A DNA stretch of 52,186 nucleotides from a virus: the IMG/VR virus record IMGVR_UViG_3300032334_000367, positions 1 through 52,186 of that record, one strand, 5' to 3'. A program made the position numbers and the translations under genes. The stretch's first letter is position 1; each line of letters opens with the position of its first letter. This document shows positions 39,034 through 52,186 of this stretch, piece by piece. The notes under the pieces are model-generated. The model did no database searches. It saw only the letters and a list, made by a program, of their open reading frames with translations, and was not told the DNA's origin.

Positions 39034-39326
39034 TTTACATGGTAGATATCGACGGCACTATCTGCAATAGTAGTGGTGGAATGTATAAGAGTGCTTCCGC
39101 ATACTCAGTTAGAATTGAGTATGTGAATAAGTTGTACGACGAGGGGCATACTATCATCTACTGGACTGCAAGAGGTGGGAATAGTGGCATAGATTGGAGC
39201 GAACTAACTAAACAACAATTAGATGCTTGGGGTTGCAAGTACCATGAGTTGCGAATGAAGAAGCCTGTATATGACGTTTGGGTAGATGATAAGGCAATCA
39301 GCGATAAGGCGTTTTTCCCAGTATGA
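39030..39326 (+). CDS. HAD-superfamily phosphatase, small
   Basis: The 98-residue product is a short HAD hydrolase: DIDGT at 6-10 supplies the nucleophile and acid/base Asp, TARGG (about 46-50) the second motif, and DVWVDDKA near residue 86-93 the acidic metal site. It has no cap domain. Relatives include capsule and LPS sugar phosphatases. It overlaps the cupin gene by 4 bases and the epimerase by 4, so all three are co-translated. Confidence 0.82.
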   Translation: MIYMVDIDGTICNSSGGMYKSASAYSVRIEYVNKLYDEGHTIIYWTARGGNSGIDWSELTKQQLDAWGCKYHELRMKKPVYDVWVDDKAISDKAFFPV

Positions 39327-40102
39327 ACATAGTAACTGGATATATGGGATTTATTGGGTCTCATATCTGTGATCGCATATCAGATATTTTTGCAGTAGAG
39401 CAAAATGATTGTTTTGAGTTCTTGCAAAATTTTAAAGATTGGTCAAAAGTAAAATTTATATACCATCTTGGTGCGATAAGCGACACCACTTGCACAGACA
39501 TTGCAAAGATATACAAGTATAACATAGACTTCTCATTACAACTTTTTGAGAAGGCTATTGAATATCAAATTCCAATTCGTTATGCTTCTTCAGCCTCTGT
39601 ATATGGAAATACTTATGGGTCTATTAATCCATTAAATCATTATGCTATGTCAAAAGCAAGCATCGACTTGTGGGTAGAAGACAATATGCATCGGTTTAAT
39701 CATATCCAAGGGTTGAGATTCTTCAATGTATATGGTAACGGTGAAGAACACAAAGGCAATCAGGCAAGCCCTGTATCTAAGTTTCGTAAAGAAGTAAAAG
39801 AACGCGGAACAATTTCCATATTTGAAGACTCTGAGTCGTACTATAGAGATTTTATTTGCGTGGAAGATCTTGTCGATATTATGGTAGACAATAAATTAGC
39901 TTCTGGAATCTATGATTTGGGAACAAGTAACCCAGTCTCATTTTGCGATGTTGCAAATTCTATTCAACAAAGATATGGTGGAACTATAAAGGTCATACCT
40001 TTTCCGAACCATTTAGTTGGTAAATACCAAAAGTCCACAAAAGCAAAACAAGTATTCCCACATACATTTAAGACTGTTTCTCAATGGCTTGATGAGAACT
40101 AA
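39323..40102 (+). CDS. NAD-dependent sugar epimerase (ADP-heptose epimerase-like)
   Basis: The 259-residue product is an extended SDR enzyme: GYMGFIG (6-12) binds the dinucleotide, and Y107-x3-K111 (YAMSK) is catalytic. The FFNVYGNGEEHKGNQAS block resembles HldD/RfaD, which converts ADP-D-glycero- to ADP-L-glycero-manno-heptose. It is shorter than bacterial HldD (about 310). With the cupin and phosphatase it suggests heptose-type sugar synthesis, but other NDP-sugar substrates remain possible. Its 3' end overlaps the convergent glycosyltransferase gene by 35 bases. Confidence 0.85.
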   Translation: MNIVTGYMGFIGSHICDRISDIFAVEQNDCFEFLQNFKDWSKVKFIYHLGAISDTTCTDIAKIYKYNIDFSLQLFEKAIEYQIPIRYASSASVYGNTYGSINPLNHYAMSKASIDLWVEDNMHRFNHIQGLRFFNVYGNGEEHKGNQASPVSKFRKEVKERGTISIFEDSESYYRDFICVEDLVDIMVDNKLASGIYDLGTSNPVSFCDVANSIQQRYGGTIKVIPFPNHLVGKYQKSTKAKQVFPHTFKTVSQWLDEN

Positions 40103-40898
40103 ATTTATCCCACAAAGCTCTCCAGTTAAGGTATGGATCTCTAGTTGAATCATCTTGGAGATGTAAAGCTAAACTTGGTATTGGGGTAAATAGCAAGTGT
40201 TTAATTTCTCTTATTGGGTAACTTTCCATATTTTGAAAAAGTCTATTAATAGATCTATCCTCGCAAGTTTCATCATACACAGATCTACCCATTGCATCAA
40301 ATAGATCCCAGTTCTCGACGATAGTTTTATGACTGACTAAAAAACAAGAAGCTGTATGGTATGCAGTTCTCCAATGACGCTTTGAGCCCAAAACAACTTT
40401 TGTGGGGTATTTCAAATATTGATTCCCATATCGATATGGATCATCATATGGAAACAGACACACTTCCATTTGAGTTAGATTCGCAAACCTGTAATAAGAA
40501 TCTACAAGCTCCCAGATAGCACTATCGAAATACAAATAATCATCTTGAACAAAATAGACTAGATCTTTTCCTTTTTCTTTTCCAATTTGATATTGCTTTA
40601 AAATATTTTGCATCAATCCAGGAGTTTCTGAGTTTATAATCTCGATCGTAAACTTTTGAGATTTACTTGTTTCTGACACCAATGATGTAAACTCAGTTTC
40701 AGATCTATCGTCTAAAACAATGAGCTTGATGGTTATCGGTGCCTGCTTATTGTCGAGGCAATATTGAACTGAATTTACCAAAGATAGAAAGCTTCTTTTT
40801 GATATCTCTACTTTTGATGCATTTACATAGCGAGAACTATCTTTATGGTTCGTGTTGTTTTTTGCATGCGCTTGCATGACGATTAATAAATCAATCAT
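40068..40898 (-). CDS. Glycosyltransferase, GT-A-like, putative
   Basis: The 276-residue product starts with a typical strand, has a LIVLDDRSE segment near residue 59-67 and a FVQDDYLYFDS block near 119-129, where DD probably binds metal and nucleotide sugar. A later TASCFLVSHK strand and a DETCEDRS segment complete a GT-A-like layout. It overlaps the next gene upstream by 8 bases and converges on the epimerase. The acceptor is unknown; it may glycosylate a fibre protein or host glycan. Confidence 0.7.
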   Translation of the reverse strand: MIDLLIVMQAHAKNNTNHKDSSRYVNASKVEISKRSFLSLVNSVQYCLDNKQAPITIKLIVLDDRSETEFTSLVSETSKSQKFTIEIINSETPGLMQNILKQYQIGKEKGKDLVYFVQDDYLYFDSAIWELVDSYYRFANLTQMEVCLFPYDDPYRYGNQYLKYPTKVVLGSKRHWRTAYHTASCFLVSHKTIVENWDLFDAMGRSVYDETCEDRSINRLFQNMESYPIREIKHLLFTPIPSLALHLQDDSTRDPYLNWRALWDKFSSHQAIEKQS

Positions 40899-41499
40899 TA
40901 AGATTCACATTAAACGCTATTGATATTCTAGTGTCATCAGAATTATTTTTATTGACACTATGTGGCATCCAAGATTGGAACATTATTATTTTTCCTGGAA
41001 TGGGTTCATAGCCCACGGAAGTAGAATTAAGAGGATTTTCTTCTTTTTTATTTTTCAGATAAATTCCTTTCCACATATCTCTCTCAGCTGTCGCATCAGG
41101 GAATACTATATTTCCTGATCCTTTTGGTGCGCTCACATAATAGCACCCAGAAAGAAAACTCCCATAATGTGTATGCTGGTTTTCAGTTTGACCTTTCTCG
41201 AAGAAGTTTATCCATGAATGTATGGTGTATGAACCTCTATAGTTTAGCCCCATCGCCTGACAGAAATAATTCGTACAATAAATTATCTCATTGTAAAGTT
41301 CTAAAAGATCGCAAATTTCTATGATATTATGTGTAGCGTGATATGAAGTTTTTAAATTCTCTTCTGGACTGACTATCAAATACTTTGCAATATTTTCGGG
41401 AGTAGACCAAGAATCTACCTTTGATGAAATAGCTTCTCTTTTATTTCCATCAATTTGATGAATCAAAATTGGAGTGGGAAACCAACATTCAATATTCAT
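40891..41499 (-). CDS. 2OG-Fe(II) oxygenase-like protein
   Basis: The 202-residue product resembles the phage 2OG-Fe(II) oxygenase family often annotated next to tail genes. It has NQHTHYGSFLSGCYYV (about 108-123, first metal His region), G.IVFPD (about 129-135), an MPHSVNKN segment with H180, and R191 in RISIAFN. Such proteins are predicted hydroxylases of proteins or glycans. It overlaps both neighbours by 4 to 8 bases. It is not related closely to the TET/JBP-like protein elsewhere in the window. Confidence 0.75.
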   Translation of the reverse strand: MNIECWFPTPILIHQIDGNKREAISSKVDSWSTPENIAKYLIVSPEENLKTSYHATHNIIEICDLLELYNEIIYCTNYFCQAMGLNYRGSYTIHSWINFFEKGQTENQHTHYGSFLSGCYYVSAPKGSGNIVFPDATAERDMWKGIYLKNKKEENPLNSTSVGYEPIPGKIIMFQSWMPHSVNKNNSDDTRISIAFNVNLND

Positions 41500-42830
41500 T
41501 TTTTCATCTCAATATCAATAAGTTCTCTCGCTCGCCATAAAGGTTCGCTCCAGTCTCTTGGTTTTTTTTGTTTCAGCACAGTAAAATTATCACCATACCA
41601 TGGAGTAGACTCATCTTTTCTTGTAGAAGTCCATGTGTAATATTCTGCAATGGGTGCTATCACTATCGTTCTCTTTCCAAGTGCACCAGCAGCGTGTACC
41701 AAACTAGTGCAAGAGCTGACAATAATATCCATTTGATCAATGTAATCAAGAGTGTCCTCCCAACTATCTAACTTATCGTTTAAGTTGATGCATCCTGGGT
41801 GAGTCTTTTCTTTGTCAAAATAATATAATGAGACGTTCTCAGGCATCACAGCCAGCATTTCTTCTATAGGTATTTTTCTATAAACATCTTGATCGAAATA
41901 TGGATTACCATTACACTTAAATCCAATTTTAAATTTTGTATCATTAAGTCTATTTTTTTCTTGCCTTAATGGTTTTAGATATGGTCCTTTCCATAATTGA
42001 TTCTCACTTAAACCCATATACGCAGGAAGCGCCATCATGTGCGTCCATAGATAATCTTTCTTAAAGAAACGATTATATGAGACCACCTCATGACCGTGGC
42101 GAGAAAATAAATTCGTCAGGTCAGGTCTATATTTGTACCAGCTTGAGTATAGAATTGGATGCATTCCATGATCTTTAAACCAATCAAGGAATCTGAAATT
42201 AATAATTTCATCACCAATTCCACCCTCACCATTTATAACGATAGTTCTTCCAGGAAAAACACCACCATCCCAAAACTTAAGTTTCAGTTGATCTTCAAAT
42301 AAAGAATTTTTTGGCTTAAATTTAGTGATAAAATTACCAATACCTTTAGCAGTTTCTCCATTCCTTATTTGTCGACCAGAAAGTGCATACTCTAGAGACT
42401 CTGCTTGTTTTGGATCATCAGTTTGAATTTTCATCAGAATGCTTTCAGCCTCTTCTCTTCTACCAAGAAGAGAAGTATTAAATGCCTTATACATTAAAGT
42501 TTCAGTATCGTTAGGAGTTTGTCTTAAATTTAGGTCGACATAAAATAGTGCTTGTTCTGGTTGATTGATTGCGTTATATATTTTATATAAATTTTCTCTA
42601 GATTTTCTTAACTGCTCTCTATTTGTAGAATGACTATAAACATATTTGGCAGCTTTAAGGCGCAAATCATCGTGTTTTGCTAGTATGCTCAATTCACCTA
42701 GAACATCATAATCTGAAATTGATTCAGCGTTCTCGGCAAAAATATCAAGCACTTTGCAAGCGAGAGGATAGTCATAATCGTTGACAACAATCCGCTCAAT
42801 AACATATTTCAGTTTATCTCGGTCAATCAT
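41496..42830 (-). CDS. TPR-containing glycosyltransferase (GT9/GT41-like)
   Basis: The 444-residue product has an N-terminal helical region (about 1-180) with TPR-like helix pairs (NQPEQALFYVDLNLRQTP) and a C-terminal GT-B domain beginning with GRTIVINGEGGIGDEI (about 199-213). It ends with a nucleotide-sugar-binding segment (DIIVSSCTSLVHAAGALGK, about 372-390) like heptosyltransferases or SPINDLY/OGT-type enzymes. It lies close to the heptose-type sugar operon, so heptosyl transfer is a reasonable inference. Its start overlaps the methyltransferase gene by 8 bases. Confidence 0.78.
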   Translation of the reverse strand: MIDRDKLKYVIERIVVNDYDYPLACKVLDIFAENAESISDYDVLGELSILAKHDDLRLKAAKYVYSHSTNREQLRKSRENLYKIYNAINQPEQALFYVDLNLRQTPNDTETLMYKAFNTSLLGRREEAESILMKIQTDDPKQAESLEYALSGRQIRNGETAKGIGNFITKFKPKNSLFEDQLKLKFWDGGVFPGRTIVINGEGGIGDEIINFRFLDWFKDHGMHPILYSSWYKYRPDLTNLFSRHGHEVVSYNRFFKKDYLWTHMMALPAYMGLSENQLWKGPYLKPLRQEKNRLNDTKFKIGFKCNGNPYFDQDVYRKIPIEEMLAVMPENVSLYYFDKEKTHPGCINLNDKLDSWEDTLDYIDQMDIIVSSCTSLVHAAGALGKRTIVIAPIAEYYTWTSTRKDESTPWYGDNFTVLKQKKPRDWSEPLWRARELIDIEMKK

Positions 42831-43374
42831 AATTTTTAATTGCTACCAATTTTATGTTAACTTCCATTACGATATTGTTGTGTTCTCTTATGTAAGGGAC
42901 AACCTGATCTGCTGGCTTTCCCTCAAAAGCTTTACGATAATATTCATCAGGAATATCTTGAGAATCTACAACCTCAAAATCTACGCCATAGTAATATGCT
43001 AATCTTGAAGCTCTTGTGCCAGCTTTTATTTGAATGTCATTATACTTTTTACTGAATAGCCATAGACCGGGAACTGTTATTGGTCGACGATGTGTTGGGT
43101 CATCAGCAAAATGCTCATGTCTATGGTGCGGTACGCGAATATCAATCATAGCTCCATGCTTACAAACTCTATAGAGTTCTTGCATCACATGGAAATAACC
43201 CTCGCCAAGATGTTCAAGGACATGATGCGCAATAACTTCATCTACGGAGTTATCTTCAAATGGCCAAGGATCTTTTTCTATATTGAAACAATAATCTGGA
43301 TTAGAATTTTTATCATAGTCAACGCTCACATAACCTGGTATTTTCTCATCACCAGCACCAATATTTAATTTCAT
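42823..43374 (-). CDS. SAM-dependent methyltransferase
   Basis: The 183-residue product begins with the SAM-binding motif LNIGAGDEKIPG (3-14) and VDYD, and has the EVIAHHVLEHL motif (about 47-57) of class I methyltransferases. The following PHHRHEHFADDPTHRRP stretch is seen in a family of phage and glycan-cluster methyltransferases. The substrate is likely a sugar or glycan, by context only. Confidence 0.85.
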   Translation of the reverse strand: MKLNIGAGDEKIPGYVSVDYDKNSNPDYCFNIEKDPWPFEDNSVDEVIAHHVLEHLGEGYFHVMQELYRVCKHGAMIDIRVPHHRHEHFADDPTHRRPITVPGLWLFSKKYNDIQIKAGTRASRLAYYYGVDFEVVDSQDIPDEYYRKAFEGKPADQVVPYIREHNNIVMEVNIKLVAIKNYD

Positions 43375-43388
43375 ATATCACCTATCAA

Positions 43389-44546
43389 TTAAGCAACCCA
43401 ATATCCTGTGTTTAATGAGTTTGAAAGAAGAAATAAATCTTCATGGTTTTCTGTTGGGTATAGTTCATTAGTGAGTTGAACAGCCTCTTGGATATTTAGA
43501 GGCGTTAAAATATCAACATTATTTTTTATAGCATTTTGCAAATTCATTTTATTTGGTATATAATTATGTCTTTCTATAAATGAGAATATGTCAAATGGAG
43601 AATTACCAGCATTTTTAAGATGAGCTGGTGCAAACTCAATAATTATATGAGGTCTGTGTTTACGAAAGAACTCTTTACCACCCTGAAGAACCTTAGCGTC
43701 AGATCCTTGAGCATCAATTTTAATCAATTTAATTCTAATTAAATCTTGATATGTGAGCGACTCAAAGAAATCATCGAGAGAAACGCACTCAATTTTTGGA
43801 CCAATGTAATGATCCTTAGCTGCAAAATTAACTCTATGGTCACCAAAATTAATTCTAGACCTCATCAAAGTTGCTGTCTTACTTTCTTCCATAACCGCTT
43901 TTTGAATAAGAATTACATTAGATAATTCGTTCATCTCAATGTTATACTTGAGAAGCTCAAAGTTTTTTGCATCAGGTTCAAATGCATAAACCTTTCCTGT
44001 GGGACCAACAAGCTTGGATGCAATAATTGCATTGAATCCAATGTTAGCTCCAACATCAATATAAACATCACCGTTTTGTAAAAACTTAGTATACGTTGCG
44101 ACATCGTCTAGATCTGGAGTGCCATGAAATCTTATTATATAAGAATACAACTCATCTTCTTCATGAAGCTTCATCTTAAAATTAAAACCAAAAAGATTAA
44201 ACTCTTGTATTTTCTTAAATTTATTTGTAATTGTTTGATGACTTGTTTCTGGGTTTCTACAGTCGAATTGACGACATGAGATAGGTCTATCGTTGTAGAT
44301 ACTACACTTATTGTTGACCAGGTACATACAGCCGCCGTGAACTGCCTTAGGAATTGTTATAACTGGTTCCTCTGAAAGAGGTGATTGCATAAAAGTATAC
44401 GCATATTTACCAGATTTAAATTCCTCATCAGTTAGATGTGGCGTTAACTTTGAACAGCAGTCAAAACAACTTCCACATGGGACATCTGATATTGGTAAAT
44501 CATTTTTTATTGTGATTCCCTTAAATTGAAAAGTTTTCATTTCCAT
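43389..44546 (-). CDS. YkgJ-type Cys cluster fused to FkbM methyltransferase
   Basis: The 385-residue product is a two-domain fusion. Residues 20-100 have the YkgJ-type pattern CxxCxxCC (C24, C27, C30, C31) followed by C73, C81, C91 and C96 in the order CxIYNDRPxxCRxFxC, expected to bind an Fe-S cluster or zinc. Residues about 150-385 are an FkbM-type methyltransferase (DVGANIGFNA and VYAFEPD). FkbM enzymes methylate sugars or other hydroxyls. The fusion is unusual to me. It lies 4 bases from the sulfotransferase gene. Confidence 0.83.
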   Translation of the reverse strand: MEMKTFQFKGITIKNDLPISDVPCGSCFDCCSKLTPHLTDEEFKSGKYAYTFMQSPLSEEPVITIPKAVHGGCMYLVNNKCSIYNDRPISCRQFDCRNPETSHQTITNKFKKIQEFNLFGFNFKMKLHEEDELYSYIIRFHGTPDLDDVATYTKFLQNGDVYIDVGANIGFNAIIASKLVGPTGKVYAFEPDAKNFELLKYNIEMNELSNVILIQKAVMEESKTATLMRSRINFGDHRVNFAAKDHYIGPKIECVSLDDFFESLTYQDLIRIKLIKIDAQGSDAKVLQGGKEFFRKHRPHIIIEFAPAHLKNAGNSPFDIFSFIERHNYIPNKMNLQNAIKNNVDILTPLNIQEAVQLTNELYPTENHEDLFLLSNSLNTGYWVA

Positions 44547-44549
44547 AAT

Positions 44550-45323
44550 TTAGCGCCAAACCTCAAGTCCAGAAAACTGATGAAATATATCAGGAGGAAG
44601 TATTGTGTTTCTTGGTATATATTCAACCTTTTTTCTTATTTTGTGCAACCCGTTAATTCCCGCAGCATCATCAAACTCATCATAAGAAGTTTCAACATTG
44701 TTAAAATCATGATTATAATAATCCTCGCCAATAAAATTATATAACGATCTCATTGTTTGTTCTGGATTTTTAGATATCTGCTCATACTCTACTAGAAATA
44801 TTTTATGTTTATGGGGACCAGTAATTGCTTCTTTTAAACAATCGTATGGAAATCTTAAACTGTGTCCAGGGCTCATCAAAGAATTAGCTCTGGTATAAAC
44901 TGTTTCTCGATCTTGATCTGTAAAAAGGCGAGAATGCGTAAATGGATTTTTACGAAATAAAACCTCAAAAGAATCTAGTATCCATGGGATATCTCTAACA
45001 CAACAAATTAATTTAGCGTCAGGAAAAGTTTGATCTAACATTGGAAGTAATACGCTCCACCCACGATTTGTGTTAAAGCAAACTTCTTTGTTATAATCTG
45101 CGTGATAAGTCTCAATAAGATTTTTTATTAAATTTATTCGTTTCGATTCTGGACATTCAATTGAATAACCTGGACCTGAATATGTTTCCACAACAACAGA
45201 ACGAACAAACCTTGCGAGAGGATTTGATATTGTAGAGTAAAATTTAGGGTTTTGATTTAAAATAGAAGTCAATAAAGTCGAACCTGATCTTGGAAGACCA
45301 GAAATAAAATGATATTTTGTCAT
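44550..45323 (-). CDS. Sulfotransferase family protein
   Basis: The 257-residue product starts with the PAPS-binding loop GLPRSGSTLLTS (about 9-20). A CCVRDIPWILDSFE segment (about 91-105) fits the 3'-phosphate-binding motif of PAPS-dependent sulfotransferases. The acceptor is probably a glycan or protein tyrosine; not visible. Sulfotransferases of this kind recur near tail-fibre genes of marine T4-like phages. It lies between FkbM and the first RCC1-like protein. Confidence 0.82.
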   Translation of the reverse strand: MTKYHFISGLPRSGSTLLTSILNQNPKFYSTISNPLARFVRSVVVETYSGPGYSIECPESKRINLIKNLIETYHADYNKEVCFNTNRGWSVLLPMLDQTFPDAKLICCVRDIPWILDSFEVLFRKNPFTHSRLFTDQDRETVYTRANSLMSPGHSLRFPYDCLKEAITGPHKHKIFLVEYEQISKNPEQTMRSLYNFIGEDYYNHDFNNVETSYDEFDDAAGINGLHKIRKKVEYIPRNTILPPDIFHQFSGLEVWR

Positions 45324-45329
45324 AAATCC

Positions 45330-47165
45330 TCAATAATATGTTATAATCACCGCACCATTAGATCCTGGATTTCCTGCTGTAGCGTCAACTAATATACCAC
45401 CACCACCAGCACCATATCTAAGTGCATTTCTACCAGCAATTCCAACACCACCATTACCAGCACCTAAACTTCCATCACCACCTGCATTTCCTGCAGTGTT
45501 AGCGTCTGTTCCACCTGTAGCAGTATTTGCTGGACCACCAGCACCATTACTTATATCACCATAAAAACCGCCACCACCACCATTAGCAGTCATTTTTGTT
45601 ATTGTATATGTTAATGATGAGATTGATGAGACATTTCCAGGTAAGCCAATACCACCATTAGTTGGTGCATATCCACCATCTCCTCCCTGACCAATGAGCA
45701 AAGAAATTGTTTTGCCACCTTGGTATCTTACATCGGCAGAAGTTCTAGCATATGCTCCGCTTGCTCCTCCACCACCTCTAAATATGCTATATCCATCTCC
45801 TCCTCCCCCACCACCAGCCCAAACTTCAAAAAATGCACTAGCCATTCCAGTGGGAATAGTCTCAGTAAATGAGCCTGGGACTGTATATGTACTTATTTGA
45901 GGAAAACTCGCATCATTTTCCACCAATCCTAACATAAACACTTGGTTTCCTGTTGGAGAATCTGCGACAGATATTTGCTTCCAATTTAAGGGGTCAATAT
46001 AGATAATTGATGCTGGAGAAGATCGATTAAACGTTGTACCACTACCTAATATCCCAACAGAGTTATTACCCCAAGTCCAGAGAGTTCCATCTGTTTTAAT
46101 AGCCGATGCACAATTACCAGTCATATAAACCTGTTTCCAAGTTGTGCCGCCACCAGCAACTGTTCCTGGAGAAGATCGATCTGATGTTAAATCATTTCCC
46201 AGCACACCTGACGAGTTTTTACCCCAAGTCCAAAGAGTTCCGTCAGTTTTAATTGCAGCAGAAGAATAAATTCCACAAGAAATATCTTTCCATTGATATG
46301 AGTTCGCAGGAACAATTAAAGATCCTGGTGAATTTCTAGCTGACGTGTCTCCTGTGCCCAGCTGACCACTACCATTTCCACCCCAACTCCAAAGAGTACC
46401 ATCAGTTTTGATACCAAGTGTGTGCGTATTAGCTGCACTATTATCAGGAGCGAGTGTAATTTTATCCCACTCTCCACCACCAGCAACAAGAGATGGACTT
46501 AATCTTGATGTTGTTACACCAACTCCCAATTGTCCTGATGTGTTATTGCCCCATAGATATAAAGCGCCATTGGCTTTAATTGATGCTGCATATCCTCCAG
46601 TGCCGAAGCCTCCAGCTGCAACATATTTCCAATCATTGTTAGCGCCAGAACCTGGTAAACCTGCGAATATTATTGTGCTAGGAGAAGATCTAGCTACTGT
46701 GCTGTTTATGCCCAGTTGCCCTGTACCATTATTTCCCCAAGTCCATAAACTTCCATCATTTTTGACACCAATCCCGAAAGATGATGCACATGCAACTTGA
46801 TCCCAAGTTACACCACCACCAGCAATTGTTCCTGGTGAAGATCTATTTGTTGTGCTACCAATACCCAACTGACCAGTATCGTTAATACCCCAAGTCCAAA
46901 GAGTTCCGTCAGACCTTACAGCTGCTCCCCATCCTGGACCAGCTGCAGCATTTTCCCAAGAGACCATGCCCATACCAAATAAAGATGCAGGAGAAGATCT
47001 ACTTGTTGTTGTATTGTCACCCAATTGACCTACCGTATTAAACCCCCATGAATATATTCCTGATGAGCTGAAGTATTCTCTGCGCACAAGAATATTTGAA
47101 AGATCAACACCAGAAAATCCTAGTGTTGTATTGCTATTGGTATATTGTACGGGAGTAACAGCCAT
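45330..47165 (-). CDS. RCC1-repeat tail protein with Gly-rich C-terminal domain
   Basis: The 611-residue product has seven RCC1-like repeats (about 35-400; each with a LWTWG.N..G.LG-type core), enough for one seven-bladed beta-propeller. A Gly-rich C-terminal domain follows (about 450-611, runs of GGGG and GNGG) resembling the receptor-binding loops of T4-type adhesins. The N-terminal 30 residues (GVDLSNILVRREYF) resemble the attachment segments of the other two RCC1 proteins. It is probably a host-recognition component. It overlaps the next gene by one base. Confidence 0.82.
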   Translation of the reverse strand: MAVTPVQYTNSNTTLGFSGVDLSNILVRREYFSSSGIYSWGFNTVGQLGDNTTTSRSSPASLFGMGMVSWENAAAGPGWGAAVRSDGTLWTWGINDTGQLGIGSTTNRSSPGTIAGGGVTWDQVACASSFGIGVKNDGSLWTWGNNGTGQLGINSTVARSSPSTIIFAGLPGSGANNDWKYVAAGGFGTGGYAASIKANGALYLWGNNTSGQLGVGVTTSRLSPSLVAGGGEWDKITLAPDNSAANTHTLGIKTDGTLWSWGGNGSGQLGTGDTSARNSPGSLIVPANSYQWKDISCGIYSSAAIKTDGTLWTWGKNSSGVLGNDLTSDRSSPGTVAGGGTTWKQVYMTGNCASAIKTDGTLWTWGNNSVGILGSGTTFNRSSPASIIYIDPLNWKQISVADSPTGNQVFMLGLVENDASFPQISTYTVPGSFTETIPTGMASAFFEVWAGGGGGGDGYSIFRGGGGASGAYARTSADVRYQGGKTISLLIGQGGDGGYAPTNGGIGLPGNVSSISSLTYTITKMTANGGGGGFYGDISNGAGGPANTATGGTDANTAGNAGGDGSLGAGNGGVGIAGRNALRYGAGGGGILVDATAGNPGSNGAVIITYY

Positions 47166-47665
47166 TATACTTCTTTAAGTTTGAAAATTTGAATTAAGCC
47201 GCTGGTGAACGAATGAAATAGCCATGGTCTAAAAAATATTCCTTGACCTGGTTCTAGGAGATGATTTAACTTTAAATCCCATTCAAACAAATTTCTATAT
47301 GCTAACTGATAATTTTCTGTTGCATTTTTAGCTCCAGATTTATGCTCAAAAACATTAAATGTTGTGTGGTCTATAGCAACAACGAATAACCAATCTTTAT
47401 TAGACTCAAATTCTTCAAAATGAATAAACCCTGATGAGTTAGGTATTCTGAATACCCCAGACTTATCTTTATCCACAGTAATTTTTCTATTTAGAACATT
47501 TGAAAAAACTTCATCAGCATCTTCTGGGACCATATTAAAATTTAGTAAATCTTGTCCGAAGTCATTTTCTTCAAATTGAAGAAGAGGAAGTATTACCTTA
47601 CTTAGCATAAGCCCTTCTTCTTTGGTATAATAATCATCAATCGTAATAGTTTTAAGAAATGCCAT
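47165..47665 (-). CDS. Small DSBH/cupin-like protein between RCC1 genes
   Basis: The 166-residue product has a C-terminal beta-rich part with LEPGQGIFFRPWLFHSF (about 137-153), the pattern of a cupin or 2OG-oxygenase jelly roll, and an earlier GFIHFEEF strand. A clear HxD is not visible, so catalysis is doubtful. It overlaps the first RCC1-like gene by one base. It may be a modifier or chaperone of the adjacent fibre protein; no family is recognised with confidence. Confidence 0.55.
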   Translation of the reverse strand: MAFLKTITIDDYYTKEEGLMLSKVILPLLQFEENDFGQDLLNFNMVPEDADEVFSNVLNRKITVDKDKSGVFRIPNSSGFIHFEEFESNKDWLFVVAIDHTTFNVFEHKSGAKNATENYQLAYRNLFEWDLKLNHLLEPGQGIFFRPWLFHSFTSGLIQIFKLKEV

Positions 47666-47668
47666 ATA

Positions 47669-48901
47669 TCACCAATCATCCTCTTCTTTGATTGCACAAA
47701 GAGTTCCATTGCCTGCGGCAACCACTTTCCAACTTGTTACGGGTAATGCAGTTTGCGCAGGAGAAGTTTTACTGTTAGATGTGTTTCCATCTCCACATTC
47801 TCCAGAAAGATTCGCACCCCATGTCCAAAGACTTCCATCAGATTTTATGCCACCACTAGATGATGCTCCAGCATGTACACGAATCCAATTTAAACCAGCA
47901 CCAGTTACTGTGTCTGGAGAAGATCTACTTGCACCAGAAGCACCAAATCCTAATTGACCAAAATCATTTTTACCCCACGTCCAAACAGAACCGTCTGATT
48001 TAACTGCAACAGTATGCGAGTATCCACATGACGCAAGTTTCCAGTTTGTACCACCACCAAGTGTTGTGGTTGGGCTTGATTTGTTGACAGTAAATCCATC
48101 ACCAAGCTGATAGTTACCATTTAATCCCCAAGTCCAAAGCCTACCATCATTAGTTATTCCAACTGAAAAGCTTGTTCCAGCGGCAACAAAATTCCAAATA
48201 TTATTTGCAGCTGCAGGAAAACTTACTGCAATACTTACTGGTGAAGATCTATTTGTTGTTGATCCAGAACCTAATTGTCCGTTGGTATTCACTCCCCACG
48301 AATAAAGATTTCCGTCAGTTTTTATTGCTAAAACGTGAGTGTCTCCTGCAGCAACTTGTTGCCAAGTATCTGCAGCACCACCAGTGGGAGCTCCTGCCAT
48401 AGTAGATGGACTGGTTCTTGATGTTGTGTTACCTGTCCCTAATTGCCCTGATGTGTTCAATCCCCAAGTCCACATTGAACCATTAGATTGTATTGCTGCA
48501 GTGTAACGAAGCCCACAAGAAACCTTAGCCCAAATTGTTAAGTTAGTTCCAGCTGTTGTTAAGGGGGAAGATCTATTTGCTGTTGCACCAGAACCTAATG
48601 CTCCATATGTTCCAGCGCCCCATGTCCAAAGACTTCCGTCTTGGCGAATTCCTGCGACATGCAGTGCTGCATCAACGGTTTTCCAGTTTGATGCTCCACC
48701 AAAAACTGTTCCTGGGCTAGATCTAGATGTGTTATTGACATTATCTCCAAGTTGCCCAGATGAGCCAATTCCCCATGTCCACATTGATGGCATGTTGGAG
48801 TGTGTAGCAATATTTGGATATCGATCAATAAGATATTCTTTGGTAACGTACTTGCCACCAACATCAATTCCATCGTTATCTGTAAAACCTAATGTTGCCA
48901 T
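47669..48901 (-). CDS. RCC1-repeat tail protein (second copy)
   Basis: The 410-residue product contains seven RCC1-like repeats (about 40-400), each with a WTWG-type core, a GQLG turn and a TxxRSSP linker, as in the neighbouring paralogues. The N-terminal DNDGIDVGGKYVTKEYLIDRYP segment is typical of marine T4-like tail proteins and probably anchors it to the baseplate or fibre. No Gly-rich domain follows. Likely a host-recognition propeller; divergence from its paralogues suggests different ligands. Confidence 0.82.
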   Translation of the reverse strand: MATLGFTDNDGIDVGGKYVTKEYLIDRYPNIATHSNMPSMWTWGIGSSGQLGDNVNNTSRSSPGTVFGGASNWKTVDAALHVAGIRQDGSLWTWGAGTYGALGSGATANRSSPLTTAGTNLTIWAKVSCGLRYTAAIQSNGSMWTWGLNTSGQLGTGNTTSRTSPSTMAGAPTGGAADTWQQVAAGDTHVLAIKTDGNLYSWGVNTNGQLGSGSTTNRSSPVSIAVSFPAAANNIWNFVAAGTSFSVGITNDGRLWTWGLNGNYQLGDGFTVNKSSPTTTLGGGTNWKLASCGYSHTVAVKSDGSVWTWGKNDFGQLGFGASGASRSSPDTVTGAGLNWIRVHAGASSSGGIKSDGSLWTWGANLSGECGDGNTSNSKTSPAQTALPVTSWKVVAAGNGTLCAIKEEDDW

Positions 48902-48902
48902 G

Positions 48903-49529
48903 TTATTCTAAATCGATTAAATTTAATTCTTCATGAGTAGAAGCTAAATCTATTTCTATATGCTTATTTGCTTCCCAATCAAATTGCTGTTGAACATGAT
49001 CAGAGATACATTGAGAAATAGTAGCCATATCATTCTTAGTTAGAGTTATCCAAAAATCTCCAAATTTCCAATCAAGTGTTTCATTATCTCCTAACATAAG
49101 ATATCTTTGAATGTAATTTCCTCTATTTTCGCGAGATGTGCTGATATTGATAACAGTGTTTTGTATTGTGCATGTAGTTCCTGCAACTTCTTTGTTATAT
49201 CTATTTGCGGTTACAATTTCTCTAAATGCACCTTTAACAGAATCAATATGATTTCTTTCTACTGTATATGAACCTATAGCAACATTTCCACTAAGATCCC
49301 AAAACGGACCATGTAAATATTCTATCTTAGGATTGTGTATGGGATTTTCATCATAAATTGCTGGAAGAATCTTAACAGTTTCAGTGATAAAGATCGGTTC
49401 CCCATCTGTTTTATTTGATGGAAGAGCATAATTTATGTTTAAATCGTCTCTTAGAGTTCGCTCAAATGAACGAAAATTCCAAGGTCTTGGTCCATTTAAA
49501 ACATAATTATTAGATACTAAAACGTACAT
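48903..49529 (-). CDS. DUF4376-like tail protein
   Basis: The 208-residue product has a mixed fold with a WDLSGNVAIGSYTV block (about 76-89), NRYNKEVAGTTCTIQNTVINISTSRENRG-type sequence in the middle, and a C-terminal QQFDWEANKHIEIDLA helix (about 179-194). This resembles the DUF4376 proteins that accompany phage tail fibres. It is presumably a fibre-associated or chaperone protein. It lies between two RCC1-like genes. Assignment from memory. Confidence 0.6.
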   Translation of the reverse strand: MYVLVSNNYVLNGPRPWNFRSFERTLRDDLNINYALPSNKTDGEPIFITETVKILPAIYDENPIHNPKIEYLHGPFWDLSGNVAIGSYTVERNHIDSVKGAFREIVTANRYNKEVAGTTCTIQNTVINISTSRENRGNYIQRYLMLGDNETLDWKFGDFWITLTKNDMATISQCISDHVQQQFDWEANKHIEIDLASTHEELNLIDLE

Positions 49530-49535
49530 CTTAAC

Positions 49536-50810
49536 TTATCCTCCGCCAATGAAAAGGGCGATCCCTAGAGTCTCATTAATATTAGCTCCTGCACCATCAG
49601 TAGATCCTGAGCAAGAAACTGCAGTCCATTCAGCAACACCACCAACTATTGTTCCAGGAGAAGATCTACCAGTTATATTTCCTGTTCCAAGATTTCCTTG
49701 AGAATTAGTGCCCCAAGTCCAAAGAGATCCATCAGTTTTAATAGCTCCTGTGTGTCCATAACCACAAGAAACGTGATCCCAATTTGTTCCACCTCCAGCA
49801 ACAGTCGCTGGCGAAGATCTTGGGCTTGTAGATCCATCTCCAAGTCTACCGTTTGTATTAGAACCCCATGTCCAAAGTGTACCATCTAATTTGACACCTG
49901 CCATATGAGTCGAAGATGCAGTACTGATAGAAACTTGTTTCCAAATTGATCCTCCACCAACAACTGATCCTGGAGAAGATCTATCTGTTGTCGAGCCGTC
50001 ACCTAAAACTCCAGTTCCTACTGGAATAGAAGAAATTGATATTGCATTTCTACCCCAAGTCCAAAGAGTTCCATTATTTTTAATTGCAGCTGAACTTTGT
50101 CCGCCAGCTGCGATTTTATACCAATCAAATGAACTACCAGCAACTTGTGTTGGAGTTGATTTATTGATTGTTGATCCATCGCCTAATTGACCATTAGCAT
50201 TAAATCCCCATGCCCAAAGGCTTCCATCAGTTTTAAGACCAAGTGTGTGTCCACTTCCTGCCCAATATTGAGATGATGCGATATCATACCAACTGTTATT
50301 TGTAACTGATCCTGAAACTATGACGACCTGTGCTGTTGACCTATTTGTGGTGTTGCCTGTGCCTAATTGACCCTGAGTATTAAACCCCCAAGTCCAAAGA
50401 GATCCATCTAACTTTAATGCTGCTGTAAAACCTGTGCCTGTTGTAACTCTTGACCAATCTGTTGTTGTATTAGAAGTTTGAGCAGGTGATGATCTACTTA
50501 CTGTTGACGCATTACCGAGTTGCCCAAGAGAATTAACTCCCCAAGTCCAAAGAGTGCCGTCTGTCTTAACACCCGCGCCAAATGATGTTGTTGTGCTTAT
50601 AACAGCAGCAGAAACCTGTTTCCAGTTTGACCCAAGTCCACTAAAATCTACAAAACTAGATTTACTTACTGCAGTTCCGTCACCCAATCCACCGATAAGA
50701 TTGGCACCTGTACCAAATGCTCTGTTTCCAATATATCTGTCAATTAATTGAGTATCAGTGAAAAAGATACGATCAAAATTTTCTCCATTACTGTAAAATG
50801 ATGATGCCAT
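49536..50810 (-). CDS. RCC1-repeat tail protein (third copy)
   Basis: The 424-residue product has seven RCC1-like units, the first degenerate (FGTGANLIGGLG) and six with WTWG/WAWG cores (about 30-410). The N-terminal FDRIFFTDTQLIDRYIG resembles the anchor of the second copy. The C-terminus is short and hydrophobic. Its start overlaps the S74 fibre gene by one base. It is probably a propeller-type adhesin exposed on the tail. Confidence 0.82.
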   Translation of the reverse strand: MASSFYSNGENFDRIFFTDTQLIDRYIGNRAFGTGANLIGGLGDGTAVSKSSFVDFSGLGSNWKQVSAAVISTTTSFGAGVKTDGTLWTWGVNSLGQLGNASTVSRSSPAQTSNTTTDWSRVTTGTGFTAALKLDGSLWTWGFNTQGQLGTGNTTNRSTAQVVIVSGSVTNNSWYDIASSQYWAGSGHTLGLKTDGSLWAWGFNANGQLGDGSTINKSTPTQVAGSSFDWYKIAAGGQSSAAIKNNGTLWTWGRNAISISSIPVGTGVLGDGSTTDRSSPGSVVGGGSIWKQVSISTASSTHMAGVKLDGTLWTWGSNTNGRLGDGSTSPRSSPATVAGGGTNWDHVSCGYGHTGAIKTDGSLWTWGTNSQGNLGTGNITGRSSPGTIVGGVAEWTAVSCSGSTDGAGANINETLGIALFIGGG

Positions 50811-52186
50811 TATTCACCTCTCGATTTTCTCTCGAGATCATTTACTCTTGATGAGAGATTTTTCACAGCCTCAATCAAGATTGCGATAATGCCTGAATAG
50901 TTGACTGTTTTATTATTCTCATTTGTTTCAACAAGTTCTGGTAGAACTTTTTCTAATTCTTGCGCAATAACACCAATAGATGGAAGACCAGTATCTCTCC
51001 AATTAAACTTAACGCCGCGCAATTGATCAACAATTTCTACAGCGCGTTTAATAGTCTCAATATTTTCTTTTCGTAAAATATCAGACAAGCTGTTGAAAGT
51101 TGTTGCGCTTAATGTACCAGTTGATGGATTAAACGATAGTTGCGTTGCAGAAGTATTTAATGACGCTATTGTACCAGAAGAAACATCAACGAATAGTGGA
51201 TATCTAGTAGCATTAACAGTATCTGGTACAACAGTTGAAGAAGAAGCACCAGAAGCACCTTGTGCGCCCCTGTCACCAGTTCTACCGAACACAATAGACA
51301 TTAATGTATTGTTAGCAGCTGGGGCTATACCAGAAACGCCAGTTACAGGAACACCACAATAATTTGCATTTCCTATAATAGTGCCTGTAATTTTAAATAT
51401 ATTAACGAGAGTGCCATTTGCAGGCTCATCTTGAATCACAAGATACCCAGCATTAGCAGTGGTAGTTGAGTCGTCCCACTGCATAATATAATTGTTAACA
51501 TCTACACCAGCACTAGTATTAGAAATATAAATTGTGGCAGATATATTTGTTAATGCTCCAGTTACACTATATGCAAAACTGTTAGCTCCTGGATTTGTAT
51601 TTGTAGTATTAGTGATAAACTTGTATACTAAACCGCCCTTATAACCAGTAGAACCTTGTGCACCTTGAACACCACTTCCAGGTGCACCTTGGAAGCCCTG
51701 AGTTCCTTGGAAACCTTGAGCACCTTGGAATCCTTGATTACCTTGGTTGCCAATGTTACCTTGTGTTCCTTGAAAACCTTGGTTGCCTTGGTTGCCAATG
51801 TTACCTTGTGTTCCTTGAAAACCTTGGTTGCCTTGGTTGCCGATATTTCCTTGTGTGCCTTGGAATCCTTGGTTGCCTTGGTTGCCGATATTGCCTTGTG
51901 TGCCTTGGAATCCTTGGTTTCCTTGATTACCAATATTGCCTTGTGTACCTTGGAAACCCTGATTACCTTGGTTGCCAATGTTACCCTGAGTACCCTGGAA
52001 TCCTTGATTGCCTTGGTTGCCAATATTTCCTTGAGTGCCTTGGAATCCTTGATTGCCTTGGTTGCCAATGTTACCCTGAGTACCCTGGAATCCTTGGTTT
52101 CCTTGGTTGCCAATGTTACCCTGAGTACCCTGGAATCCTTGGTTTCCTTGGTTGCCAATGTTACCCTGAGTACCCTGGAATCCTTG
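50810..52186 (-). CDS. Collagen-like tail fibre with S74 chaperone domain (5' truncated)
   Basis: The frame is open to the window edge, giving 458 residues with no start seen. Residues 1 to about 181 are a collagen-like Gly-X-Y rod made of a 15-residue unit. A beta-rich region follows. The C-terminus is a Peptidase_S74 intramolecular chaperone: SDILRKENI with the catalytic Ser368/Lys373 dyad, then IGVIAQELEKVLPELV and a C-terminal helix. S74 domains trimerise fibres and then cleave themselves off. An ATG at 51484 is internal, because the same frame continues upstream without a stop. Confidence 0.88.
   Translation of the reverse strand, partial: QGFQGTQGNIGNQGNQGFQGTQGNIGNQGNQGFQGTQGNIGNQGNQGFQGTQGNIGNQGNQGFQGTQGNIGNQGNQGFQGTQGNIGNQGNQGFQGTQGNIGNQGNQGFQGTQGNIGNQGNQGFQGTQGNIGNQGNQGFQGTQGNIGNQGNQGFQGAQGFQGTQGFQGAPGSGVQGAQGSTGYKGGLVYKFITNTTNTNPGANSFAYSVTGALTNISATIYISNTSAGVDVNNYIMQWDDSTTTANAGYLVIQDEPANGTLVNIFKITGTIIGNANYCGVPVTGVSGIAPAANNTLMSIVFGRTGDRGAQGASGASSSTVVPDTVNATRYPLFVDVSSGTIASLNTSATQLSFNPSTGTLSATTFNSLSDILRKENIETIKRAVEIVDQLRGVKFNWRDTGLPSIGVIAQELEKVLPELVETNENNKTVNYSGIIAILIEAVKNLSSRVNDLERKSRGE
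51737..52186 (-). repeat. Ten tandem copies of a 45-bp unit coding a collagen-like rod
   Basis: Ten in-frame 45-bp units encode QGFQGTQGNIGNQGN with mostly synonymous differences. The array runs off the window edge, so the total number is unknown. It ends at 51737 in a degenerate Gly-rich segment. Being a coding minisatellite, it is prone to slippage in whole units that keep the frame. Confidence 0.92.

Follow-up and report, generated by a model that had tools for sequence, protein, structure and literature searches.

Three genes of the window analysed here, a viral record of 52,186 b whose head, neck and tail genes are T4-like, encode repeat propellers that are most likely mounted on the virion, at the tail or baseplate, and serve as host-surface binding heads with a diversifying face. 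We infer the virion location, the outward orientation and the ligand of these heads from a pattern that fits such a role: a fixed mount, an interchangeable head and one fast-evolving face. The major capsid protein of the window is ~58% identical to its counterparts in cyanophages and in Pelagibacter phage HTVC008M. All three genes lie on the minus strand. RCC1-alpha (49536..50810) consists of an anchor in residues 1 to ~33 (FFTDTQLIDRYIGN) followed by a seven-bladed RCC1 propeller; RCC1-beta (47669..48901) has the same layout, with an anchor in residues 1 to ~38 (KYVTKEYLIDRYPNI); and RCC1-gamma (45330..47165) adds to its own anchor (DLSNILVRREYFSSSG) and seven-bladed propeller a C-terminal Gly-rich domain (45336..45884, minus strand; PF21722, residues 428-610, E 9.7e-9). 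The preliminary description had read three open reading frames with seven repeats each at these places, a LIDRY motif in two of the proteins and an added Gly-rich domain in one, and all of this is borne out. RCC1/RLD Pfam matches reach E 1e-48 to 1e-75 per protein, PF00415 and PF25390 score above their curated cut-offs in all three, a genome-wide scan confines the RCC1 repeats of the window to these genes (19 matches), and a blade HMM trained on other genomes, the window left out, finds 21 blades, seven per gene. The motif reads YLIDRYPNI in beta and QLIDRYIGN in alpha, and gamma is without it. In two relatives (L075 and L086) a Gly-rich stretch is placed N-terminal to an anchor, as against its C-terminal place in the gamma of the window.

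An AlphaFold2 model of beta, built from an input alignment of 26 relatives, has a mean pLDDT of 88 and 28 strands arranged as seven blades of four, with a short helical segment of lower certainty at residues 14-32. Its best matches among solved structures are HERC2 RLD2 (Z 54.5), UVR8 (51) and RCC1 (49.6), with an rmsd of 1.6-2.2 Å across ~360 residues for HERC2 and RCC1; the match to BLIP-II is weaker (Z 31.5). As modelled, beta is thus an RCC1-like seven-bladed beta-propeller, as the preliminary description, which had proposed structure prediction as a check, supposed, and judging from their sequences alpha and gamma share this fold. Blade number is constrained: 272 of the 309 complete RCC1 open reading frames, redundant contigs counted, have seven blades, and the remaining counts include 14 or ~21/28, which correspond to tandem propellers. 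Five loci have, at one cassette position, chains of 14 to ~28 blades that look like two to four propellers in a row (L071, L081, L089, L061 and L026). At another (L038:6493-9996) an alpha-type propeller is, by eye, fused behind a subtilase-like region, so that the anchor is not always N-terminal, and in L059 a beta-type propeller (L059:10681-13665) carries a ~600-residue N-terminal extension ahead of its anchor, the gamma of the same locus being likewise extended.

The three genes belong to a cassette with the order RCC1-alpha, DUF4376, RCC1-beta, an optional small protein and RCC1-gamma, usually followed by a sulfotransferase. Relatives were gathered by scanning IMG/VR for DUF4376 and for the small protein, and are mostly metagenome contigs, in which repeats can be misassembled. 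Complete alpha, DUF4376, beta and gamma genes were present in 65 sequences, which reduce to 39 distinct ones at 95% DUF identity. Since the trio is common to 39 distinct virus sequences and its anchors are position-specific, it is an old cassette and not a local duplication, and the earlier reading of the genes as duplicated needs correction. One isolate carries the cassette, the freshwater Synechococcus phage S-SRM01 (Kyanoviridae), whose paper does not mention RCC1. Every RCC1 repeat of its genome falls within gp335, gp337 and gp344, genes for the baseplate wedge and the long tail fibre come immediately before the cassette, and the order S74 fibre, RCC1-alpha, DUF4376, RCC1-beta, RCC1-gamma and sulfotransferase is that of the window, with corresponding anchors. 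It differs in lacking the small protein, in the six other genes that separate beta from gamma, and in an alpha (L009:13288-14322, 344 aa) of six blades instead of seven; its propellers are 70% alike within the genome and ~43% identical to those of the window.

The setting of the cassette is a tail-fibre region. Directly before alpha lies a gene for a collagen-like fibre with a terminal S74 intramolecular chaperone (50810..52186, minus strand; S74 E 1.3e-12), whose open frame extends past the end of the window and which contains a tandem repeat (51713-52186) of at least 10.5 copies of a 45-b unit, cut by the window end; the RCC1 genes likewise follow an S74 fibre in S-SRM01, L013, L015 and L016. 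A search for the T4 late-promoter motif TATAAATA found none near the cassette, and its count is at chance level. The DUF4376 gene (48903..49529, minus strand; PF14301 E 9.3e-10; phrog_10508, annotated tail fiber), noted earlier as standing between RCC1 genes, does so, and always occupies the alpha-beta interval in the compared cassettes. Its product is modelled with a pLDDT of 96, but its best Foldseek match in the PDB has an E of 0.1 and a weak prefoldin-like match a VIA Z of 7.5; we make no claim on its fold because these scores are within the range of models without a clear match. We regard it as a candidate assembly factor or adaptor that may help the propellers to assemble. Between beta and gamma sits a small conserved protein of 166 aa (47165..47665, minus strand), present in ~16 of the 39 cassettes, which gave no Pfam or PDB match even when searched as a profile. 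The jelly-roll likeness first attributed to it was not confirmed, and the impression of a cupin came from a by-eye PGQGIFFRPWLFHSF motif only.

The cassette usually continues with the sulfotransferase (44550..45323, minus strand; PF13469 E 2.1e-17), which lies directly downstream of gamma, the two being no more than 100 b apart in 29/39 sequences. A profile search of solved structures placed TPST1 (1.1e-11) and TPST2 (1.9e-7) ahead of other sulfotransferases, so that its closest solved relatives are tyrosylprotein sulfotransferases. We take the catalytic Glu of TPST2 to be E99, shortly after the PAPS loop; a check of our alignment, by eye only, noticed no conserved Glu at that place. Beside the cassette (40068-44546) lies an island of sugar- or surface-type genes, with an FkbM methyltransferase fused to a CxxCxxCC domain, a second methyltransferase, a TPR-like protein and a 2OG-Fe(II) oxygenase; an epimerase on the other strand (39323-40102) goes with it, and a comparable island follows the cassette in S-SRM01 and at other loci. 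Neighbours that resemble surface-sugar modification (sulfotransferase, FkbM methyltransferase, epimerase), together with the indirect nature of the virion assignment, would suit proteins that are secreted or displayed on the cell surface during infection, acting on the host or excluding rival phages, and that are not virion parts. We consider this quite unlikely: the N-termini of alpha, beta and gamma start with anchors and, by eye, show no obvious signal peptide, the gene order of S-SRM01 follows on from baseplate and fibre genes, and distant RCC1 relatives are virion proteins, detected by MS in virions of W70 (PMC11370258) and GAP32 (PMC5259590).

The most variable columns of the 51-residue blade are 5, 7, 8, 18, 39 and 40. 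When these same six columns, chosen on 27 genomes, were tested on seven disjoint close pairs, dN/dS, obtained by simple counting on these few pairs, was 1.98 (bootstrap 1.13-3.12), against 0.10 in the opposite-face loops (columns 27-31 and 47-49), 0.15 in the strands, 0.22 in DUF4376 and 0.11 in the small protein. Strands in the beta model run from columns 50 to 4 (s1), 21 to 26 (s2), 32 to 37 (s3) and 41 to 46 (s4), an order that, by strand topology, puts the s1-s2 and s3-s4 loops on one face and the s2-s3 and s4-s1 loops on the other. Both ends of the chain leave via the conserved face, which the anchor would therefore hold, turning the variable face outward. In an alignment with UVR8, columns 39-40 coincide with the Trp-Arg of its GWRHT motif, residues that line the UVR8 dimer interface. 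Tyr makes up 21% of the hypervariable residues, followed by Ser, Asn, Phe and Gly; a TPST-like sulfotransferase adjoins the gene of a propeller with a Tyr-rich variable face. Within the window itself the 21 blades average 2.81 bits at the variable columns versus 1.92 in the opposite loops and 1.47 in the strands, a less sharp contrast; columns 28-31 and 34 vary there too.

This asymmetry bears on two other accounts of the genes. In one, the propellers would be a baseplate scaffold or structural decoration without a ligand, varying by neutral drift on an exposed surface; exposed loops do tolerate change, and both the anchors (by class) and the blade number are conserved. Drift, however, predicts a dN/dS of about 1 or below, whereas the preselected columns reach ~2, with a lower bound of 1.13, against 0.10 in the loops that these blades have on the other face, which makes this account improbable. 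The other, put forward by the authors of the jumbo-phage and W70 studies on the strength of the RCC1 name (PMC7247149; PMC11370258), takes such proteins to condense DNA or to form an inner body of the head. Eukaryotic RCC1 does bind nucleosomes and the median propeller pI of the family is ~9, but the propellers of the window are close to neutrality (net charge +1, +2 and 0; pI 8.0, 8.4 and 6.5), their genes come after a tail-fibre gene and together with DUF4376, whose PHROG is a tail fiber one, and members of the RCC1 fold such as UVR8, BLIP-II and HERC2 are general protein binders. Diversifying selection on one face would also be unexpected for DNA packing, and we hold a DNA-condensing role to be very improbable; no eukaryotic partner, Ran or nucleosome, is expected for these propellers.

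Anchors and propellers have followed separate evolutionary paths. The anchors form three position-specific classes, with 3 class changes on the tree versus 47 by chance, and homology among those of alpha, beta and gamma amounts to a weak profile match only (66% probability for alpha-beta). The propellers keep almost no positional signal: they change class 49 times versus 47 by chance, and orthologues are no more alike (0.5297) than shuffled ones (0.5290). Propellers of the same genome, on the other hand, share an identity of 0.628 versus a null of 0.532, a value reached in 0/1000 shuffles, and all three are monophyletic in 9/33 genomes. The effect remains in 24 genomes (0.592 vs 0.516) once the nine with exact repeats of at least 60 b are removed. 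Synonymous codons agree as well, at 0.618 against the 0.483 expected from codon usage; convergence of the proteins was therefore rejected as the source of this likeness, and the homogenisation within genomes takes place at the DNA level. S-SRM01 shows the same likeness, its longest exact match being at most 42 b. In the window, propellers are 0.468 identical among themselves versus 0.456 to other genomes, with a small codon excess and a longest exact match of 22 b, values that do not show recent homogenisation in this phage.

Close relatives, all of them metagenome contigs, differ in ways that point to recombination. One pair (L110/L141) shares 97% of DUF4376 and 99% of both the small protein and gamma, yet only 68.5% of alpha and 81% of beta; another (L019/L020) is 100% identical in beta, small protein and gamma, with 62% in alpha and 83% in DUF4376; and two gamma proteins (L047 and L064) are each short by exactly 50 residues, one blade, compared with near-identical sisters. 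Together with the likeness of propellers within a genome, such whole-gene swaps and single-blade losses argue for concerted evolution via recombination, and the swaps, together with a dN/dS of ~2, for adaptive diversification on one propeller face in the relatives. The diversification supposed at the outset thus holds in relatives, although its route had not been foreseen, combining mainly within-genome homogenisation, gain and loss of blades, exchange of genes and point change on one face. A diversity-generating retroelement was rejected as the mutagen because the changes are not A-directed: in the hypervariable columns, an A takes no part in ~39% of nucleotide changes.

We propose that seven-bladed propellers would be mounted on the tail or baseplate of a T4-like, cyanophage-type virus by a short N-terminal anchor, specific to its cassette position and entering from the conserved face, and that the outward face, with two hypervariable loops per blade forming a fourteen-loop ring, would bind the target. 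Variety would arise from three sources: point change on the outward face under diversifying selection; recombination among near-repeated blades, leading to homogenisation within a genome and to gain or loss of single blades; and the swapping of entire propeller genes among related phages. While propellers vary, anchors and the DUF4376 partner would stay fixed, and the cassette probably serves as a set of host-binding heads that can be interchanged. Host recognition by adhesins, as first suggested, is favoured indirectly, by the tail-fibre position, the one-face selection and virion proteomics of RCC1 proteins elsewhere (PMC11370258, PMC5259590). It is possible, if rather doubtful, that the cassette is a self-diversifying array in which three virion mounts trade blades by gene conversion and so spread binding solutions, and whose TPST-like enzyme may sulfate the Tyr-rich face.

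Several known systems resemble this one in part. Most of the sets in W70 (237-239), GAP32 (gp1), phAPEC6 and 121Q have several RCC1 propellers per genome, like the window, but their authors read them as DNA condensation and report neither anchors of the window type nor a DUF4376 cassette. BLIP-II, UVR8, RCC1 and the HERC2 RLD share the seven-blade fold, yet are cellular binders without phage anchors or cassette. The receptor-binding protein of Staphylococcus phage phi11 is likewise a phage protein with a beta-propeller, reportedly five-bladed, of unrelated sequence, encoded by one gene and built from a non-RCC1 repeat. Repeated blades have given rise to new propellers across families, some viral RCC1/BLIP-II members among them (PMC9218822). 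In Podospora, the HNWD genes het-d and het-e combine concerted blade evolution, a few hypervariable codons diversifying on the binding surface and changes in blade number (PMC12222747); they work alike, but are fungal immune sensors with WD40 blades, not viral, and we claim no homology. The open-licence literature yielded no paper that connects RCC1 with both bacteriophage and host recognition, and the matches inspected included none on concerted evolution in propellers of phages; text matches for RCC1 with cyanophage seem mostly to be numbers of culture collections. Two things appear to be new: the cassette of three positions, each with its anchor, and the evolutionary split measured between anchor and propeller.

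Phage annotations list RCC1 genes here and there as 'regulator of chromosome condensation', a misleading name, and the roles guessed at in print concern DNA packing. If our reading is true, these proteins would be a widespread class of host-recognition heads, and the cassette would be a clear phage case of a repeat propeller in which concerted evolution is joined to diversifying selection at specific sites, a route to receptor-binding variation without a retroelement. S-SRM01 and its Synechococcus host make the host-binding reading testable.
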